Made by a program: the position numbers and the translations under genes. A DNA stretch of 64,000 bases from Isoetes taiwanensis (taxonomy: Eukaryota > Streptophyta > Lycopodiopsida > Isoetales > Isoetaceae): positions 9,465,712-9,529,711 of the forward strand of contig JAJEKV010000011.1 of the NCBI GenBank assembly GCA_021234155.1, written 5' to 3'. Each line of letters starts with the position of its first letter. The first letter of the stretch is position 1. Below, one piece after another: positions 3,020 through 28,213 of this stretch. The notes under the pieces are model-generated. The model was not told the DNA's origin, made no database searches, and saw nothing but the letters and a program-made list of their open reading frames with translations.

Positions 3020-6000
3020 TTTTTTTTTTTTTTTTTTTTAGGTTAAGGCAAGATTTGATATTACATGCAAAAGAGAGATTACATGAATATTTACAGCAAT
3101 TGCAAAGGAAAAAATAAACCTTTGCAATGCTTGTTCATCCCAAGTAGGGACTGAAAAAGAAGCACAGCTAGATAAGCAAAATTAGTTGTACCAACAGATT
3201 AGAAAGAGTCACAAATGCCTATAATTGTTCAGATAACAAACCAGTCGTTCAAATCTTTATTCATAGCCCAGGGCGAACTCCAGTGGATCAACCTGCACAA
3301 TATAGAACACTGTTTCGAGCTCGTCCAGATCCAGCGGGGTGTGGACCATGAATTGCAGCACGATTTCCGAAGTTATGTCAAAATGCTCTTCCCATTTGGC
3401 AGCAAAATGAATCTTCAAATCGTTCCACCACCAAAGATCCTCATAGTCCAGAATGACGCCAAGAGCCGATCTGAGCCCAGATGTGTTGCTTCAGAGTTAT
3501 CATTTTGGCTTTGATTTGCTCCCTTGTCCATTGCTCAAAAGTCGGCTTCGGATCATATCTCCCCCGACCGGGGGGGATGACCATGTCATAGCGCTCAGTC
3601 ACAAAATCTGTCATTATCAACACCAGCATCAGTAATAGTCAATTTGAAAAAAGCATAGAAGCCATGGTAATTTCCAAGAGAATCCCAATTCCTGTCATAT
3701 GCTGAGCCCTTGCATCTTCTATGAGCTATAGCAGTCTCAACCAGCAAGGATTGGAAACAGGCTTTGATCCAATTAAGGTTGAAGGCTTTCTGATCATGGA
3801 GGATTCTGTTTCGATGTTTCCATATGGACCAAAGGGCCAGAGTTCTCAAAGTACCACAGAAGGCACTTGGAAAATTTAAGAAGACAAAAAATTCCTGAGA
3901 GGAAGAACCAGGAGTGGCCATACAGAGGTTTTGTGCCCAGATCCAAAAAGGCAGAAGTCGAGAGCATTGAAAAACATGCAGATTGGATTCTGGGAGCTGA
4001 CAGCCCAAAGGGCAAATATTAGGATACGCTGCCTTATATTTTGCTATTCTGTCATTGGTGGACAGACTCTGGTTCAACAACGACCATCTAAATAAGAGGA
4101 TCTTTTTAGCACAGTAGGCCTGCCACCCATCAATGATTATCTTGATTGCCTCTTGCTGTGAACATCCCCATTTTATAGTGACCTTGAGATCTGAAGGTTG
4201 GATGATCATTCTGTAAATTCTGGACACACTGTAATTCTTTTCCCTTCACAACTCCATGAAATGGGATCTGGTGAATCTTCCCAATTGCTCAGGGATCGAG
4301 AGACTGAGGAGAAAATCTTCTTGTTTACCTGCATGTCACTGATTTTTGTTGCCATTTCCTGCCAGGTAAGCCATCTTCCATTACATCTGAGATCAGCAAT
4401 GGATTTATAACCTGCATCACTCCATTCTTTGTATTTCCTTGGATGTTTGAGGGTCAAACAACCAGCCTCTGTTGGGAGCACATTGTGATGCCAAAAGAAG
4501 TGGAAATTGGAGCTTACCTTGTGAAAGTCATCAGCATGAAAACAATGGGAGACTTCATTCCATGCCTCCAAAAGTTGCTTCATGATGGATGAAGTGTGGG
4601 GACCTACTGTTAACTGGTAAAAGGCCGAGTCTGGAAGCTGGTGATGAATTGAGTTGCTTCCCACAGGTTTAGATTGCTAGATCCAGTACCTGATGAAAGC
4701 CATTGCAGGAGAGTTATGAGAAAAATAAAGAGCACGCCAGATCAGCTTTGCAGCTAGGGCCTGAGCTTGCTTGAAGAGGTCCTTATAACCAAGACCTCCA
4801 GAATCCTTTGGAGTGGTGAGATTCTGCCAAGCAACTTTGTAATCTCCCTGCCAAATGAATTTTCTAATGGCAGTCTGAATTTCCCCATAAGTTGCCTTAT
4901 CTGCTATAATTGCAGATGAAAAGTAAATATTTGTGCTGGCAATTACTGTATTGGCAATTTCCACTCTACCTGCCAGAGAAAGAGAAGCGGGATACATCAT
5001 AAATTTTCTCTTAATCTTATTTGTAATTGGAGACCAAAGACCATGAAGACTCATATCTGGTGCAAGAGGAATCCCCAGCAGTTTGGTGGCCATACATTTT
5101 TCCAAAATTGAGATATCTGCAATTTTGTTTTCAGTGGAGTCCAAAAGAATAGTGCATTTGGATCTATTTATTAGCACACCTGAGGCCTTACCAAATGTCT
5201 CCATAGCAGATAAGAAGGTGAAGATACTTTTTCCATCATCCTCAAGAAAAACAAATGTGTCATCAACATATTGCATCAGAGATAGAGGCTTACCTTCATT
5301 TGGCATCTGAAGGCCTTTGATCTGTCCATTCTGCTGAAGTTTGAGTGTAACCTTGGTCACCAATGACCATCTTAGCAACTATAAGGAACAGGTAAGGGGC
5401 AAGGGGGCACCCTTGCCTTACTCCTCTTTTGCAAGGGAAAAAAGAGGAGGGGCCGCCATTAACTAAGACTGCAGATCTGGCATCCTTATTAAAGGCAGAG
5501 ACCAAGTTAATTACCTGTTGTGAGAAACCAAGAAACTCCATAGCCTTGTATAAGAAATCCCAATTAATGCCTTTTGAAATCAAGCTTTAAGAGCATACAA
5601 TTCTGTTTAGTGAATTTGTTCCAGTGTATCCCCTCATATGCTCCAATAAAATTATCAAGAATGCTTCTGGCAGGGAGAAAGGCAGTCTGGAGAGGACTAA
5701 TGATTTTTTTCTAAAACCAGCTTGACTCTGTTTGCTCATATTTTGGCCAAAATTTTATTAGTGGTATTGGTCAAAGAGATTCGCCTCCAATCAGAGAAGC
5801 CTACAGGCTGATAAACTTTGGGAACCAGTGCAATGAGTCCAGCATTAATTGCAGGGTGTAAACTGTCTGCCTACCAAGCCCCTTGTATAAAAGTTGTTAG
5901 GTCATCCTGCATCACATCCCAGAATTCCCCGAAGAATTCTGGGGGGAAGCCATCCGGGCCTGGACTTTTTCCAGAGGCCATGGAGTTCAAAGTGAGAAGA

Positions 6001-6914: not shown

Positions 6915-9651
6915 TTAAATGGCACCTAAAATCATTGCTAGTGTAGCATCCGTGTTGTAGACATAACACATGTGTTTGCAGAGGAGAAACCTACCCTTGC
7001 AATCATGTTTCATGAATTCTGGACAACTACATCTAGGGTTTGCACTAATCTCAATCTTGTAAATGTTGGTATCTCTTCTGAGCTCATAAATTACATGCTT
7101 TCCGCATGTGATAATCTGTTTTCCAACTACTTCTGCTTCCATGTCATAACTTCGCTCTAGATTCACATCTTCATCGTTACTCAATCTGGCTCGTTTATTG
7201 ACACGCCTTCCATTTCTAACTTTGACGAAACTACTCGCAGAAGGTGCATCAGAAGAAACGTCAGTGGAGTACTGATTAGATGTGGATGACAGCCCTCTCA
7301 CCTCGAATCCGCTACTCATCAGTACTTGCAATTCTTCATCCTTTATGTTGACTCCTGTAGCCACTGGCCAACTACCAGGTCTGCTAGGAGCACTGACTAT
7401 ACTGTAATCCGGATACCATGTATGTTGCACATTGGTTGAACAAAACCACATCATTTGTTCATGCTCTCCATTACGATGTCTTCTGATCCCATAAAAAGAA
7501 GGGGCAACAGTGGATTTGTTCCCCTTGTTAATACGTGTTTGGCATTTATGACCAGTTTTTGAAACACGACCCATACATTTCACTTCACTTCCAGCAAGTG
7601 TCCTCCTCAAGGCCCAACTAGCCTGATGAATATCTAATTCTATGACTCTAATTTGTGGACTGCCAAAATTTATTGTCCTTCTTGCTGAGTCATCAATTCT
7701 TGAACGTGACATAGTGTGGGTCACCTTATCTGGACGATGACTTCCTGCTTCAGAATTAGTAATTGTGGATGTCTTTCTCAAGATGGTTCGGTTATTACCA
7801 CCGGATCCAGGATTATATTCTGGCATTCCACTTCTTGATGTTTCTTCATTAATTATATTCACTCCCTGCATAGGGCTTATTCCAGAGCGAAACCTTATTT
7901 CCAATCTTCCCAGTAGATTTGAAACACTAGGTCCTGTTCCCAAGTGTCTACCCTCCAACCATGCTTTGTATTTTGAACTTTGCAAGAGTGCTTCTGTCAT
8001 GTCAAATACACATGCATCATATAAATTCATAGTCTTTCTGTATCCCCTAGCTGCTAGCCAGCTTCCGTGCTTGGATTCAGACATGTTAGTGTGAGGGACA
8101 TGTATGGCACTGGCTATGTCCTGATGCCACCAAGACAACCACGAACCTAACGACTTTATGTCCACCTCGTCGGCTTTTCCAGGCCACCAATCAATGATTT
8201 CATGATAAATATCTTCTGCAATTTCAATAGTTTCTGCATTCCTCCATTTCCTACATAAATTCAGATGCTGGATACGGTAGGCCTCATAAATGTATTTATT
8301 TGTGTGACGTTGCAAGCACTGCTCAAAATGAAATTGACATGAGCGTTCTCCACCTAAACGTTCCTGACCATTATTGAACACATCTCTTACTGCTGTCCAG
8401 TTAGCCTGTGCTTCATCGGCCATAAATTTCCTAAATTCAGCTGCCGGAAAACCTTTGCCCTCCATCACCTTATTTAGTTTTTCCCAAAACAGTCTTTGTG
8501 CGATGTAATCTTCAGTTTTCATGTCACACAAGGCAATAGTCTGAGAGACCGTATCCTACATGAAAGGAATTACAGAAAATGAAATATACAACTTATTTTG
8601 GATCAAAATAAAAAGAAACAACTTACTTTGGATCATAGACATGACACCCCAACGTTGTCCAAGTCGGAATACGTTTCACATGACCAAAATGAACCCAACT
8701 ATGTTCCAAATCCCCACCTGGACGCATTCTATTTACTAAATCTACTCCTGAGCCAGGCCCGACGGTGGACATCTTGAAGATATAACATCTTTCATTATCG
8801 TCATCATGTAACTGGTAAGGAAACACTGAACCGTGGAAGTACTGGTATCTGCTATGTTGTTTCAAATATAAAATTTGAGAAAACTCATCCCCTCCTTTCT
8901 TGTTCTGAGCTTTAGCTTTATGAATCCACCTTCGTAATCTGAAATTCCAAAATTAATGATAAACGCCAGGTAAAGACATTGGATATAAATCGAGAAATTT
9001 AATACAATACCTTCGTTGATTATTCAATGGTTCAAGTTTTTGAAGAAATCTATCCACACCCGCAGAATCCATTGTTTGAAAAGCCGAGATTTCGTCTTCA
9101 GAAATTATATTACCATTCACAAAATCCATTGCAAGATCGTGTTGTGTTTCTCGGGCTCCCTTCATAGTTGATGGTGTATTTGCACCTCTAGTGTTCAAAA
9201 GTGCTTTGGCCATATACATACTTTCTCTTGACTCTGCAACTCTGATAGGATGTTCATGACTTCCGATGTGAAAGGCCAACCTCGTAAAACTTGTATTATC
9301 TGGAAAGCAGTAATATATTTTGCATGTGCACTGGCTTATGCATTCTGGTTGTTCCCTACAAAATATACAATTAAGGGAACCATTGACTGTAGATAGTTCT
9401 CCTATAAATGGTATGTTCCTTAAGGTTCCTCTCCATTGCACCTCATTTGGTTTCCCTGTTCCCAATAAACATTCACAACTCATATTCTTGCATTGTAAGT
9501 GGCCACAACAATGGGCCAATTTCACACAGCCTGGAAAACTTGGAACAACTGTATGAGAAGGGTCTGACCAAACATGAGGATCCATGTTATGTTCCATTCC
9601 CGACTTCGAACATTTTTTTTCACTTGGGAGCTCGCAAGGGGACGGCACCAT
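6915..9651 (-). CDS. MULE-type transposase with SWIM zinc finger (spliced, possibly dead)
   Basis: Three exons on the minus strand. Exon 1 (to 9011) has a Cys/His-rich N-terminal domain (FPGCVKLAHCCGHLQC…). An intron with GT-AG ends at 8939-9010 (72 bp) joins in phase to exon 2 (8938-8627: RLRRWIHK … GHVKRIPTWTTLGCHVYDPK). A second 71 bp GT-AG candidate (8556-8626) leads to exon 3 (IALCDMKTED … MADEAQANWTAVRDVF … RSCQFHFEQCLQRHT …), which is the MULE DDE core followed by a SWIM finger, CSCPEFMK…GRFLLCKHMC. The second join as read by eye is off by one nucleotide, so this copy may be non-functional or spliced differently. The start codon is uncertain because a minisatellite begins there. Terminal inverted repeats were not found. 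Confidence 0.7.
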
Positions 9652-9955
9652 TGCTATTTTTTTGTAACAGATTTTTCTAGAACATTCTTCCAGCCGATGC
9701 CATTTTTTCTAGAACATTTTGCCAGCCAATGCAAGAGCCAATGCAAGGGGATGGCACCGTTGCCATTTTTTTTATCATGTTTTTCTAAAACATTCTTATA
9801 GCCGATGCCATTCTTGTAGAACATTTTGCCAGCCAATGCAAGGGGACGGCACCGTTGCCATTTTTTAAATCAGATTTGTCTAAAACATTCTTCCAGCTGA
9901 TGCCATTCTTCTAGAACATTAGGCCAACCAATGCAGGGGGATGGCACCGTTGCCC
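9637..9955 (+). repeat. minisatellite, units of 109 and 95 bp
   Basis: Four copies of the landmark 'ggggAYggcaccRttgc' start at 9638, 9747, 9842 and 9937, spaced 109, 95 and 95 bp. Within each unit 'cattcttccagccgatgcca' and 'tagaacattttgccagccaa' recur. A further isolated landmark lies at about 10,107. The array abuts the apparent first codons of the MULE gene. Confidence 0.8.
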
Positions 9956-22487: not shown

Positions 22488-24977
22488 TTAGCAAATTTGA
22501 GAAACTTGAGAATGATCGGAATAGCCTGGAAAAGCATATTTTGCACCAAAGTCTAGCTGACCAGCTGCAACAATATTGGAGAGCAAAATGTATGTTGATG
22601 CATTGAGTGAGTCTACTTGAATGACATTTTTGGCTACCCGCTTTCCGACTGAGATGTTATCATGCTTTCTGCAAGCTCCAAGCAAAGCCAACCAGGACAT
22701 GGCATCAGATTGAAATGGCATGCTTTCAACAAAGGCCTCCCCAATGTCTAACATATCTGCACGTCCAAGCAGATTTACTATGCAAATAAAATGTTCCAGG
22801 TTTGGTGAGATGCCATGGTCACTTTTTATAGAAGTCAAGGAGTAGCATCCTTCATCCACTAAGCCTGCATGACTACATGCAGACAGAATGCCTTGGAATG
22901 TAATCTCGTCAAGCACCAGACCTTGCAACAACATCCTCTCTATAATTTGAAGGGCCTTCTTTGCATTCCCATGCTGATAATTAGCAACAATCATGGCAGT
23001 CCATGATACTACATCTCGTTCTAACATCTCATCAAAAACCTTAGTTGCGTCCTCTAGGTTACCACACTTGGCATACATGTTGATCATGGCATTCTGCATG
23101 GCAATATCTACCTCAAAGTTGTTATTGACAATATAAGCATGCACTTGCTTGCCTTCAGTCAATGCGGCCTTTACAGTGCAAGCATCAAGAAGGTTGAGAA
23201 AAGTTACTTTATCTGGCCTCGTTCCTGCATCTAACATTTGCTGGAAAACATTGAATGCTTCTTCCAGCTGACCTTGCTGTGAAAAGGCAGAGATCATAAT
23301 ATTCCATGAAGCAGAATTTCGTTCAGGCAATTGCCCAAAAAGTTGGCAAGCCTCATTTATCTGGCCTGCACGTGCATAAGCTGAAATCATGATATTCCAT
23401 GAGGCCAAATCTCGTGAAGGCATCTGATTAAAAAGTTCCCCAGCCTCTTTAACCCGTTCACGCCTTCCATAAGCTGAGATCATTGCATTCCAAGACACAA
23501 CATCTCTTTGAGGCATGGTCTGGAAAAAGTGGTATGCTTCCTCCAGATGACCACACTGAGCATATGCTGAAACCATTGTATTCCAGGAAATCACGTTCCG
23601 TTCCGGCATTTGATAGAACAGTTTAAGGGCCTTCTGAAGATAATTTGGTTGTGCAAAGCCTGCAAGTAATGTATTCCATGCTATAACATCTCTTTTTGGC
23701 ATTTTAATAAACAACACAAAAGCATCATCAAGCTTCTTTAGCTGCACATAACCTGCAAGCATGATGTTCCACGAGACCACATCTCTGTGAGGGATTTGTT
23801 CAAATAAATTAACTGCTTCTTTAAGCCGGCCATGCTGGATGTAAGCTCCAAGCATAGTGTTCCATGACACAATGTCCCGATGTCTCATTTTTTGAAATAT
23901 ATTGATAGCTTTCTCAATGTATCCTTGGCTGTAAGCTGCAATCATTGCATTGCATGACGTTGCACTCATTGGCATATTTTCAAGAACTTCTTGTATTTCT
24001 ATAAGCTGCCCATGTTTGGCATGAGCTGAAATAATCAAAGTCCATGATATTTTATTTGGGCGTGGCATTTGTCGGAAAAGTTGAAGGGCTTGTTTGATCT
24101 TCCCATGCTGTACATAAATGGAAATCATGGTATTCCATGATGCCACATTCTTCTGTGGCATCTGATAAAACAGCTCAATAGCCTTCTCGAGCTTCCCAAA
24201 TCGTCCATAAGCAGCAACAATGGCATTCCACGAGACAACATCCCTCCTCGGCATTCGTTGGAACAATGCAATGGCATCTTCAAGTTTTCCTTCCCGTACA
24301 TAACCTGAAATCATTATGTTCCATGACACGACATCTTTTTGAGGCATTTGCTGGAAGAATTTGTCTGCTTCTTTGATCTGATCATGCCGGACATATGCAG
24401 CAAGTATGGCATTCCATGAAACTACATCTGGCTGAGGCATTTTTTTACATATTTCTAGGGCTTCACACATGTGCCCTGATTGAGCGTAAAATGCGATGAG
24501 AATGTTCCAGGAAAAAGAATTCTTTACCTCCATATTGTCAAATATGACACGAGCGCTTTGTAAAGCTCCACATTTTCCATACATCTGTATAAGTAGATTC
24601 GAAAGCCGAACATTTCCCTGAAGCCCATGTCTAATAATCTGCTCATGGATTTGTCGGCCACCAGAAAGATCCTTTCTGCTGCTACATTTCCGTAAAACAA
24701 TGGAAATGGCAGGTATATCCAAGGTTTGCAAGGCTTCATCTTTTTGATCGAATATGTTGCTGGCCTTTGAGTTTAATCCTTCCAAACAACCCGCAGCAGT
24801 TGAAAATTCTTGAGAAGGAAGGATTCGGTGAAAAGCAGAGTTTGAAACCGATGTGAAATATCTGCAAATCCTATGGCGCACAGAAAATGCGGTGATGAAG
24901 GCCGCCGTGATGTAACAGAAAATGGAGTAACAAACCATCAAAGAAAATAGTAAAGGTAGGAAAGAATTTTCTTTCAA
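22488..24977 (-). CDS. PLS-type pentatricopeptide repeat (PPR) protein, no DYW domain
   Basis: An uninterrupted 829-codon frame. Residues ~1-60 are hydrophobic then arginine-rich (SVRHRICRYF), plausible for import into mitochondria or plastids. An L-like repeat (~85-152) is followed by 13 consecutive S-type repeats of 31 residues (~153-555), each like DVVSWNAMISAYGR…EAxxLFxQMPxR. One (ATSCNAMIAAYSQ) is a residue short and has lost its tryptophan. Then come P/L/S-like repeats and an E-type tail (STYILLSNIVAAGQL). The protein stops about 15 residues later, with no E+ or DYW deaminase domain. PPR proteins bind organellar RNA; this type usually specifies C-to-U editing, and those lacking DYW need a partner in trans. 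Single exon, usual for the family. Looks intact. Confidence 0.93.
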   Translation of the reverse strand: MKENSFLPLLFSLMVCYSIFCYITAAFITAFSVRHRICRYFTSVSNSAFHRILPSQEFSTAAGCLEGLNSKASNIFDQKDEALQTLDIPAISIVLRKCSSRKDLSGGRQIHEQIIRHGLQGNVRLSNLLIQMYGKCGALQSARVIFDNMEVKNSFSWNILIAFYAQSGHMCEALEICKKMPQPDVVSWNAILAAYVRHDQIKEADKFFQQMPQKDVVSWNIMISGYVREGKLEDAIALFQRMPRRDVVSWNAIVAAYGRFGKLEKAIELFYQMPQKNVASWNTMISIYVQHGKIKQALQLFRQMPRPNKISWTLIISAHAKHGQLIEIQEVLENMPMSATSCNAMIAAYSQGYIEKAINIFQKMRHRDIVSWNTMLGAYIQHGRLKEAVNLFEQIPHRDVVSWNIMLAGYVQLKKLDDAFVLFIKMPKRDVIAWNTLLAGFAQPNYLQKALKLFYQMPERNVISWNTMVSAYAQCGHLEEAYHFFQTMPQRDVVSWNAMISAYGRRERVKEAGELFNQMPSRDLASWNIMISAYARAGQINEACQLFGQLPERNSASWNIMISAFSQQGQLEEAFNVFQQMLDAGTRPDKVTFLNLLDACTVKAALTEGKQVHAYIVNNNFEVDIAMQNAMINMYAKCGNLEDATKVFDEMLERDVVSWTAMIVANYQHGNAKKALQIIERMLLQGLVLDEITFQGILSACSHAGLVDEGCYSLTSIKSDHGISPNLEHFICIVNLLGRADMLDIGEAFVESMPFQSDAMSWLALLGACRKHDNISVGKRVAKNVIQVDSLNASTYILLSNIVAAGQLDFGAKYAFPGYSDHSQVSQIC

Positions 24978-24994
24978 TAAAATAAAGTCACGTT

Positions 24995-25950
24995 AATACA
25001 TTATTTATCGACTCTTTTTAGGATGTATTTAGCGTGTATTATAGCTAATGTGTATCGCCGCGGCAAGGCGAATATTTCTCTTCGTGGACTCACTCTTGCA
25101 AGGAGGGATTTGAGTAACTTTGGAATGGTGTAAAAGATGATCTTGAAATGCGAGACTTGATTTTTCAATAAGTCAAAAAAATTTCGCCTCCCTGCAAAAA
25201 CAGGGGCACGCTCATCTGCATCTGAAACTACATTTTGACAAAATAGGGATGCGGATTTGCTGCATCAACAATGTCACTCATCAGATTGCAAAAAAGAGCA
25301 TTGCCATGGAATATCTCTGTATACTTGACTTCAGGAAGGTTTGGATTATAATAAATCTGTGCCACGAATTCATAAACTTCAAACCACATCCAGGGGAAAA
25401 GTTATCTTGTTTGCACAGGAGTTGAGCAACACGGACCAGACGCTTCAAACTACTCCATAAAAGCATTATGTCCAAAGCAGCTATGTCAAAAGCAGTTATT
25501 TTTTCTCTGTAAATGAAGAATGGGTACCTGCATATAGTGTACACGACTTCCATTTTGACAGTTCTGGCAACAAATGCAGAATCCACAATGGGGCTAGAAA
25601 ATAGATCACCGATATTATGCCAGTGAAAGCCTTGCTAGGTTCAGCAGCTTGAAAAAACAATCTGCTCCAGATGATCTGCTCCGGCTATGGCAAATTATTG
25701 TTGCCCTTTTGCCCTTAAACCCAGCATTGCCATAGCCAGATCTTGCTTCATGGATGAATGGCACAGAGTGGACAGGCACAGAAATATTGAGGAATTGACA
25801 TCACGATCTTTTTTAGTTTCCATTATTTAATCCCCATGTGTCACTACTAGAGTTATTCTTAGCACAGACAAAATACCCTCAAAAAAATATTCTATATCTA
25901 ACAAAAAAAGAGACTGCATTATATATGTTGGGAAAGTATATATTATAGCT
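24995..25950. other. upstream region of the PPR gene; no gene recognised
   Basis: AT-rich. Short minus-strand frames (e.g. 25,281-25,586) have no recognisable motif. It probably contains the promoter of the PPR gene, but no TATA box stands out enough to call. Confidence 0.4.
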
Positions 25951-25954
25951 TCTG

Positions 25955-26080
25955 GGCCCTCGGGTAGTGGCACAATTGGTAGGATATTCCCTCTCCACAG
26001 ATCTTGCTCGCCCATCCCAGGTATTTCTGGGGTCAAACTGGCCCTTTTTGACCCGATTTAAAGGGGGCACTTGAAGGCCA
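25955..26080 (+). mobile_element. tRNA-derived SINE-like sequence
   Basis: Reads 'gggtagtggcacaattggta', which resembles a tRNA A box (TGGCnnAGTGG-like), followed about 65 bp later by 'ggggtcaaactgg', which resembles a B box (GGTTCRANNCC). The spacing and flanks fit a tRNA-related SINE more than a working tRNA, since no clover-leaf can be drawn. The 3' tail is unclear. Confidence 0.4.
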
Positions 26081-26656
26081 GGAACCATCGGTTAATGTAG
26101 TATTCTAGCATCCGTACACTACAGTGTCATATCAACACAATCCAACAGTGCACAATTGACACATAGCAACATGATGCCAACATGTGACATGAGCCTGGGG
26201 AATTGAACCCTATTTCCAATCCAATTCTCATTGCTTACCTGGAATAGCATGAGGATGCCATCTCCAAGTATGCTATGTGAAGATCATGCTACGCCTGTCC
26301 ATAGCTCCAATAAGCCTATGTATAGCGATCATCGAAACACATCCCATTGACTGCCACTCCAGGTTGCAACTGTCAGCGGCATACATTCGACGATTCTATA
26401 CATAGCGCTTTCTATGGCGAGTACTAGTATCTGTAAGGCTACAAAGGCAAGTCGTCAGTGAGCCTGGGGAATTGAACCCCAACGCAATGCCAATGATCAT
26501 CCAGGTAGAAAGGAGATTCCAGGAAAAAAGGATCGTCCTTATGCCCAGGGGCCGAAGCCCACTGAAAATGCATAAAGTTTTAGTAACCAAATGCAAAAAA
26601 CAAGCTTCTCCGAGACAGGGCAGCAAATCAAAAAACAACACGTATTTATGAGGTCA

Positions 26657-26672
26657 CCAGATGTACATCTGG
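26657..26672. repeat. perfect 16 bp palindrome CCAGATGTACATCTGG
   Basis: A perfect palindrome 67 bp beyond the last stop codon of the HUH gene. Rolling-circle-type elements often have small hairpins at their ends, so it could mark the element's 3' terminus, but it could also be chance. Confidence 0.5.
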
Positions 26673-26738
26673 CACAAATGCCACCTATGTCAAACTGCAC
26701 AATAAAAATATTACATACACCAGCAAGAGCACAAAGGT

Positions 26739-28030
26739 CTAGTTCATAGGCTGGCCAGATGCGGCATGCTTGATGACGGCATCAAGCTGGCGGATCTCCT
26801 GGGTCAGCAGGCCTCTAGCAAGGCTCACACGTGATCTCAGTGCCTGCAGCACAGACATTGGAGCCCCAAGCTCCCCCCAAGCAACACTGGAAATACGTAG
26901 AAACCTGTCAACTACCTCCTCAGGATCCTAAGCGAAGCGGCAATTCTGTGGGCCTCGGTTCCAACCTGCACAATACTTGTTATGAACTCCTCTGCAGTGA
27001 AGATATGTTCATTCTCTCGAGAATACACCTGAGGATCAGGATAGAATGCATCAATCCTGGCACTAATCAAATCAGGGTCCATGCTTAAGATAGGATGGCC
27101 CGTCTTTCCCCTGGAATTCCCATTGCTCTCCATGTCAACCCTGCAAGAAGGCTTCACTATCGCAGACCATCCTCAAAAAAAATAAAAGAAACATAGAATT
27201 GACGTTGTACAGCAAACAAAATACACATGGAACCACCGAACGGCCATGTGTGGTCCCCAGTGTGAATGGGGATGTAATCCACACTATGGTCTGGAATTTT
27301 AAGCTCTGGGCTGAAGGGTGGATCACGAAGATCCTCAAAGTTACAATCCATCTCATCAGATGGCATCGCCAGCACCCAGGCCCATTCCGTTCCACAGCCA
27401 CATATTATGCAAGCAAACCAAACATGATAGTCCTGACATCAGATGGCATGCAGTGGGCGGGGTCCAAGAGAACCCTCCACGCAGCATGAACTCTGTGCTC
27501 ATTCAGATGAGCACTGTTGGAAGGAATGATCCAACTGCTGTTCAAAGTATACGTTCCACTCCTGAGCATCCTGCAAACAGTAAACATCAGGCTAGGAGTG
27601 AGTCTATGGCTACCGTGATAAAATACAAAGGGTGCTGCCTTATTCAACAGGTTCATATTGTCCAAAACACACAGACCTTTTGTATCCATAACACCCCATC
27701 TTAGATAGAGATCCTTTTCCTTCTCAATCATGGATTCACATACGTTATGGAGATGGCAAGAATAGTGCACCTTACCTATGTCTTTCATACAATACCCCAA
27801 CATGCCCTTAAAGCAGTGTAACATGTTATTCTTCATCACTTTGCACACTAAAACAACATCGGTTGGCTTAGAGGGCCAATTGAAATCCCTCTTAATAGCC
27901 TCATTCAAGGCCCTTGGTGTCTTATAGCGAGCTCTTAGCACAACTTGCACATGAAGGTGGTCTGCAGAAGACCCCCTCTCAGGAGCAATAGCACCAGCCA
28001 CACACCTTCTATCACAAAATGACGAAAGGG
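26739..28030 (-). pseudogene. Replitron-like HUH endonuclease gene, in three blocks
   Basis: The main block (27,405-28,001, 198 codons from a non-ATG start) has APERGSSADHLHVQ, with the HxH pair of an HUH nuclease at residues 15 and 17, and FKGMLGYCMKDIGKVHY, with the nicking Tyr70 and Lys73 in a YxxK motif. Further on come RMLRSGTYTLNSSWIIP and a VHAAWRVLLDP stretch, matching the C-terminal part of Replitron proteins as I know them. Downstream in other frames are DLRDPPFSPELKIPDHSVDY (27,157-27,375), TAEEFITSIVQVGTEAHR (26,912-27,157) and a helical end MSVLQALRSRVSLARGLL to a stop at 26,739. HUH enzymes cut one strand through a 5'-phosphotyrosine bond. The N-terminal motif I was not found, so the copy is truncated or has unrecognised introns. 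Confidence 0.7.
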
Positions 28031-28083
28031 CAATAGCAGATGCACATGTTTATAAGGACATGTGCAATATAACAAGTTCCAAT

Positions 28084-28105
28084 GGTTGTACCCCATGGTA
28101 CAACC
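28084..28105. promoter_or_regulatory. 9 bp inverted repeat upstream of the HUH frame
   Basis: GGTTGTACC-CCAT-GGTACAACC, perfect arms around a 4-nt loop, in the 5' flank of the HUH gene. The surrounding ~140 bp (28,045-28,185) recurs in diverged form at 43,990-44,135, where only one arm is conserved. On the minus strand a TATA-like 'tatgatataaatacc' precedes it, so this may be the promoter and leader. Confidence 0.5.
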
Positions 28106-28185
28106 CTTTGTCGGGGTCAGGTAAAGGTCGCCGCAGTTGATATATACTAGTGACATGGGAGTATAATATAGGTATTTATATCATA

Positions 28186-28213
28186 CTAGTAACGGTGCCC
28201 GGCGTTGCCGGGC
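28186..28213 (-). mobile_element. Helitron 3' terminus
   Basis: Read on the minus strand: GCCCGGC-AAC-GCCGGGC (7 bp stem, 3-nt loop, 28,197-28,213), a 7-nt spacer ACCGTTA, then CTAG and a flanking T. Helitrons end in a GC-rich hairpin about 6-12 nt before CTRR and insert between A and T, which is exactly this arrangement. The element must extend to higher coordinates; its 5' TC end was not located. No helicase coding sequence was seen up to 34 kb, so it is probably non-autonomous. Confidence 0.7.

Follow-up and report, generated by a model that had tools for sequence, protein, structure and literature searches.

What kind of mobile element left a minus-strand frame with the two active-site motifs of a single-tyrosine HUH endonuclease in the nuclear genome of the quillwort Isoetes taiwanensis, and how would such an element move? 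The frame lies in a contiguous stretch of 64,000 nucleotides (the window), in which an earlier note, made from the letters of the DNA, had taken positions 26,739 to 28,105 for a Replitron relic. On the evidence below, the copy at 25,941–28,032 on the minus strand is very probably a decayed, 5′-truncated and frameshifted Replitron, that is, a helicase-free DNA transposon of the type carried by seed-free plants. Replitrons were reportedly named in 2023, in what is said to be their founding paper by Craig in PNAS, and to our knowledge their mechanism in land plants has been little studied.

The HUH endonuclease frame

The minus-strand frame at 27,405–28,049 encodes ADHLHVQ and GYCMKDIGK, which contain a His-Leu-His motif (27,951–27,959) and the catalytic motif Tyr-Cys-Met-Lys of the Y-x-x-K type (27,783–27,794). 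When this frame was compared with Pfam by hmmscan, the best profile was Replitron_HUH (PF21859; E 5.2e-15, 56.4 bits, about twice the Pfam cut-off of 28.5 bits), and not one of a non-HUH family; the match covers profile positions 21–120 of 128 and lies at 27,726–28,022 on the minus strand. Replitron_C (PF21860) follows in the expected order at 27,423–27,584 (positions 23–76 of 77), with an E-value of 0.0047 that is below the Pfam cut-off. The earlier assignment to the Replitron class is borne out by the HUH domain. Together, these two regions make up an ORF1 remnant with a truncated N-terminus (27,405–28,035, minus strand). Its frame is broken near 27,405 and again downstream, and the C-terminal tail is found in shifted frames at 27,250–27,404 of the same strand (YVAVERNGPG..., DEMDCNFEDL...DYIPIHTGDHT), which is in frame in relatives such as L023, L037, and L041.

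A profile search of the whole assembly (1,658,258,908 bases in 1110 contigs) with PF21859 gave at least 150 places over the cut-off from 2165 candidates, and the same search of 14 control genomes gave no match. Since the window frame itself also scores over the cut-off, the feature is real rather than a chance resemblance. Several related copies retain uninterrupted genes, with an ORF1 of approximately 340–370 amino acids (MS.RRAARK...TMAVG). Across 16 aligned sequences, namely the window copy and 15 relatives, H114, H116, Y169, and K172 do not vary, so that the pairing of HxH with YxxK recognized in the earlier note is conserved at the catalytic positions of HLH and YCMKD and in copies that are intact. 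All 16 members match PF21859, and 15 of them have a collinear match to PF21860, sub-threshold in each case, with 0.0047 as the best E-value.

Fold prediction, which the earlier note had proposed, gave a mixed answer. The AlphaFold model of ORF1 from the 16 sequences is poor (pLDDT 41), and in a comparison by Foldseek and VIA, the Rep domains of circovirus, smacovirus, and nanovirus are among its best matches (Z 5.8–6.8; the best, circovirus Rep 7kij, Z 6.8) but tie with unrelated ferredoxin-like folds. The model is therefore consistent with an HUH fold and is not proof of it. No sequence in the PDB was matched in a profile search.

These weak similarities to viral Rep domains are what favors an endogenized Rep of a CRESS-DNA virus or a plasmid, instead of a transposon. 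A CRESS-DNA virus is a small circle encoding a capsid gene and a Rep with a helicase domain. The Isoetes elements share with the Reps of circovirus, nanovirus, and smacovirus the HUH fold family, the order of the Y-x-x-K motif, and the weak fold similarity; however, neither helicase nor capsid domains were found in them, and they are dispersed nuclear repeats. Their many copies have defined ends, form several subfamilies, include short copies with common termini, and have corresponding empty sites; Replitron_HUH gives the best profile match, and a scan of IMG/VR viral contigs yielded no relative. A viral or plasmid origin is therefore highly improbable.

Extent and decay of the window copy

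Homology to every relative breaks off at 28,032–28,035, and on the other side the copy is collinear with the relative L048 down to 25,941, giving a Replitron remnant at 25,941–28,032 (minus strand) that matches L048 over 2.2 kb at 71% DNA identity. In comparison with L048, which has 569 bp more at the 5′ side, the window copy lacks about 570 bp comprising the leader and the start of ORF1. Of the interval first delimited (26,739–28,105), the last 70 or so bases (28,036–28,105) are outside the element, which in the other direction reaches approximately 25,941. There, the 3′ end AGAAGCTATAATA (25,941–25,953, minus strand) matches the ATAATAC tail of relatives, as compared with the 3′ ends of L029, L030, and L037. 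A tree of 39 copies places it on a long end branch (0.16) and groups it with L048, L013, and L017, with support of 93/85 that is not decisive.

The description as a relic in a plant nuclear genome is correct: both ORF1 and ORF2 are frameshifted, the 5′ part is missing, and the host is Isoetes taiwanensis, in which the family is present as dispersed nuclear repeats. The window copy is old and dead, an ordinary relic of an already known transposon class in an already known host group.

Other features were seen in the same window. An intact ORF of 834 amino acids with PPR repeats is located at 22,488–24,992 on the minus strand (PF01535, E 1.8e-139), and remnants of a LINE-like reverse transcriptase at 3,595–5,378 on the same strand (zf-RVT, with RVT_1 below cut-off). 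An ORF at 392–1,057 on the plus strand matches DUF7869 (PF25273, E 2.5e-33) and is probably part of another repeat. Two long open frames at 6,915–9,708 (minus strand) match no Pfam family; they have cysteines and histidines in a SWIM-like arrangement (CSCPEFMKHDCKGRFLLCKH) and are possibly the remnant of a MULE-type transposase.

A second open reading frame

The three blocks in different frames that the earlier note had ascribed either to introns or to decay are explained mostly by decay, namely by the frameshifts of ORF1, together with what is probably a separate second ORF, and less likely by simple introns. The remnant of this ORF2 (26,739–27,133, minus strand) corresponds to a helical, coiled-coil-like protein of about 137 amino acids with its own ATG at 27,133; it is frameshifted near 26,915 and ends in ...SGQPMN. 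In the relatives, ORF2 is conserved at approximately 137 amino acids and shares 59–96% identity with the first member. Pairwise comparisons gave a median dN/dS of 0.13 in ORF1 and 0.20 in ORF2, in a test that took open copies only and hence has a modest bias; the values are nevertheless far from neutral. Judged by these substitution ratios, both ORFs are under purifying selection.

Could ORF2 instead be the second exon of one spliced gene with ORF1? Ahead of ORF2 and 60–115 nt past the ORF1 stop, nearly all copies have a polypyrimidine tract and TTGCAG, which resemble a 3′-splice site. However, the distance from this CAG to the conserved ATG of ORF2 is 5, 6, 7, or 14 nt depending on the subfamily, so that the frame is not kept, ORF1 closes with a conserved ...TMAVG-stop, and the copies have no strong splice donor in common. 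Because of the variable distance, a single spliced frame is unlikely, and a simple intron between ORF1 and ORF2 was set aside as less likely than separate ORFs. ORF2 as a separate ORF is probably translated from its own ATG. Its predicted structure consists of two long helices (pLDDT about 80), and a search with ORF2 returned generic coiled coils only. From the model, we would guess that ORF2 is an accessory coiled-coil protein acting in oligomerization or DNA binding.

Element ends

Complete relatives are 2.4–2.7 kb long, and short copies of 1.1–1.5 kb have the same two ends. A sharp 5′ boundary, starting with ATAATG (CATAATC in L021 and L022), is seen in the subfamilies examined. The 3′ tail varies between subfamilies, with (CACCCAAAACGATAATA)n in one and (GCCATAATACACGATTTA)n in a second. 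Comparison of the 3′ ends GATAATAC or CATAATAC with the 5′ ATAATG reveals ATAAT as common to both, a direct repeat of 5–6 bp; the termini carry this repeat because the variable 3′ tails contain ATAAT. Inspection of these ends by eye found no terminal inverted repeats.

One subfamily only has a strong pair of subterminal hairpins close to its 3′ terminus (L038:3436-3575, z −5.1). A 3′ hairpin stands out in subfamily A (z −5.1) and also occurs in L021 (z −3.5), but L029, L037, and the window copy lack it, and a conserved hairpin was therefore dismissed as a general feature. The sequence gagcctggggaattgaaccc, which in reverse complement looks like a tRNA B box, occurs twice, at 26,190–26,210 and 26,460–26,482, and a similar stretch is present in the 3′ part of other Replitron copies (L008 and L037); these repeats may belong to the 3′ region of the element.

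Comparison with Helitrons and described Replitrons

Helitrons typically encode a Rep-helicase protein and have TC...CTRR termini. Like the Isoetes elements, they are plant transposons that use an HUH endonuclease and vary more at the 3′ end than at their sharp 5′ end. This common HUH chemistry could point to a degenerate Helitron that has lost its helicase, as could a Helitron-like 3′ terminus near the window copy (28,185–28,213, minus strand), in which the hairpin GCCCGGCAACGCCGGGC is followed by ACCGTTACTAGT, about 150 bp past the 5′ break of the Replitron. This terminus has 2371 matches in the genome at up to two mismatches, with none for a reversed control; stretches similar to it were also noted at the loci L043 and L047. 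It is, however, part of a separate and far more numerous repeat. Moreover, the Isoetes elements end in ATAATG...ATAAT and not in TC...CTRR, and intact relatives encode, within 2.4–2.7 kb, only an HUH protein with one catalytic tyrosine (Y1) and the small ORF2. As the earlier note had stated for the window frame, no helicase is to be seen: a profile search of intact ORF1 and ORF2 gave none. Descent from a Helitron is thus extremely improbable.

Replitrons are reported to occur in lycophytes (PMC10741241), and they are described with seed-free hosts, a length of 0.9–4 kb, direct terminal repeats of 5–11 bp with no terminal inverted repeats, and target-site duplications of 2–8 bp. A Replitron in Isoetes is therefore expected, lycophytes being reported hosts. 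As far as Replitrons are characterized by the Pfam profiles and this description, the Isoetes elements agree with them in the PF21859 HUH domain over the cut-off, the single catalytic tyrosine, the lack of a helicase, termini with a short direct repeat and no inverted ones, the length (2.4–2.7 kb), and the lycophyte host. By the same description, they differ in the second ORF and in inconsistent target duplications (6–7 bp or longer, at two of eight sites); furthermore, Replitron_C in the Isoetes members tested is below the Pfam cut-off. This sub-threshold match, the poor ORF1 model, and the scarcity of target duplications count against the assignment to Replitrons. The two-ORF layout and the target preference described below may be new details.

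Empty sites and target preference

Empty sites were located by joining the flanks of an element and then searching the genome, and the 5′ junction was resolved at eight of them (those of L041, L047, L040, L037, L052, L022, L045, and L046); L065 was omitted from the target test, as the relatives of its flanks, L087 and L088, diverge at the junction. When the target hexamer is compared with the first hexamer of the element itself, 30 of 48 positions match at the junction, as against about 14 at other offsets. The match is highest at offset 0 (p ~1e-5 under random placement). Target-site duplications are seen at two of the eight resolved sites, CATTGCT (7 bp) for L037 and TGTCTT (6 bp) for L022, and the other six have none, some of them with small losses of the target. 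A direct search for duplications in 12 copies, before the empty sites were sought, had given no clear result.

The targets thus resemble the 5′ end of the element, which fits strand transfer guided by Rep. Short-homology repair of a linear DNA end, without any choice of target by Rep, would also leave ATAAT-like bases at the target; it would account for the missing duplications at most sites, and the small losses at the 3′ junction look like end joining. By contrast, the similarity covers six bases exactly at the fixed 5′ end at eight unrelated sites, as is expected of a Rep recognizing its own nick site. Repair has some weight here, yet we consider it rather unlikely, and Rep-guided transfer is the reading adopted in the following model.

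A model for transposition

In this model, ORF1 of intact relatives would act as a single-tyrosine HUH endonuclease (Rep), which would nick one strand at the 5′ end of the element (ATAATG) and keep a covalent hold on the 5′-phosphate through its tyrosine. The strand would be peeled off while a host polymerase copies the element. Rep would then make a second, loosely placed cut where the 3′ tail has a sequence like ATAAT, and join the freed strand to a target resembling ATAAT. Insertions made in this way would be precise at the 5′ end, ragged at the 3′ end, and would carry a short direct repeat. Such a polarity, with nicking at the 5′ end and loose termination at the 3′ end, predicts the two kinds of end that are seen in the sequences, and copy-and-paste transposition by a rolling circle would be consistent with them. 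We tentatively propose, as a possibility short of an even chance, that quillwort Replitrons are a two-gene lineage, with an HUH Rep and a conserved coiled-coil protein translated from its own ATG, and that their Rep selects ATAAT-like targets resembling the 5′ nick site of the element, which would make the terminal direct repeats a consequence of strand-transfer chemistry.

The Isoetes genome thus harbors a large Replitron family. It comprises several lineages, copies whose ORFs are uninterrupted, and short derivatives that arose by deletion, and some of its empty sites have been resolved. Such a family makes the recognition of termini, the choice of targets, and the role of the second protein directly testable.
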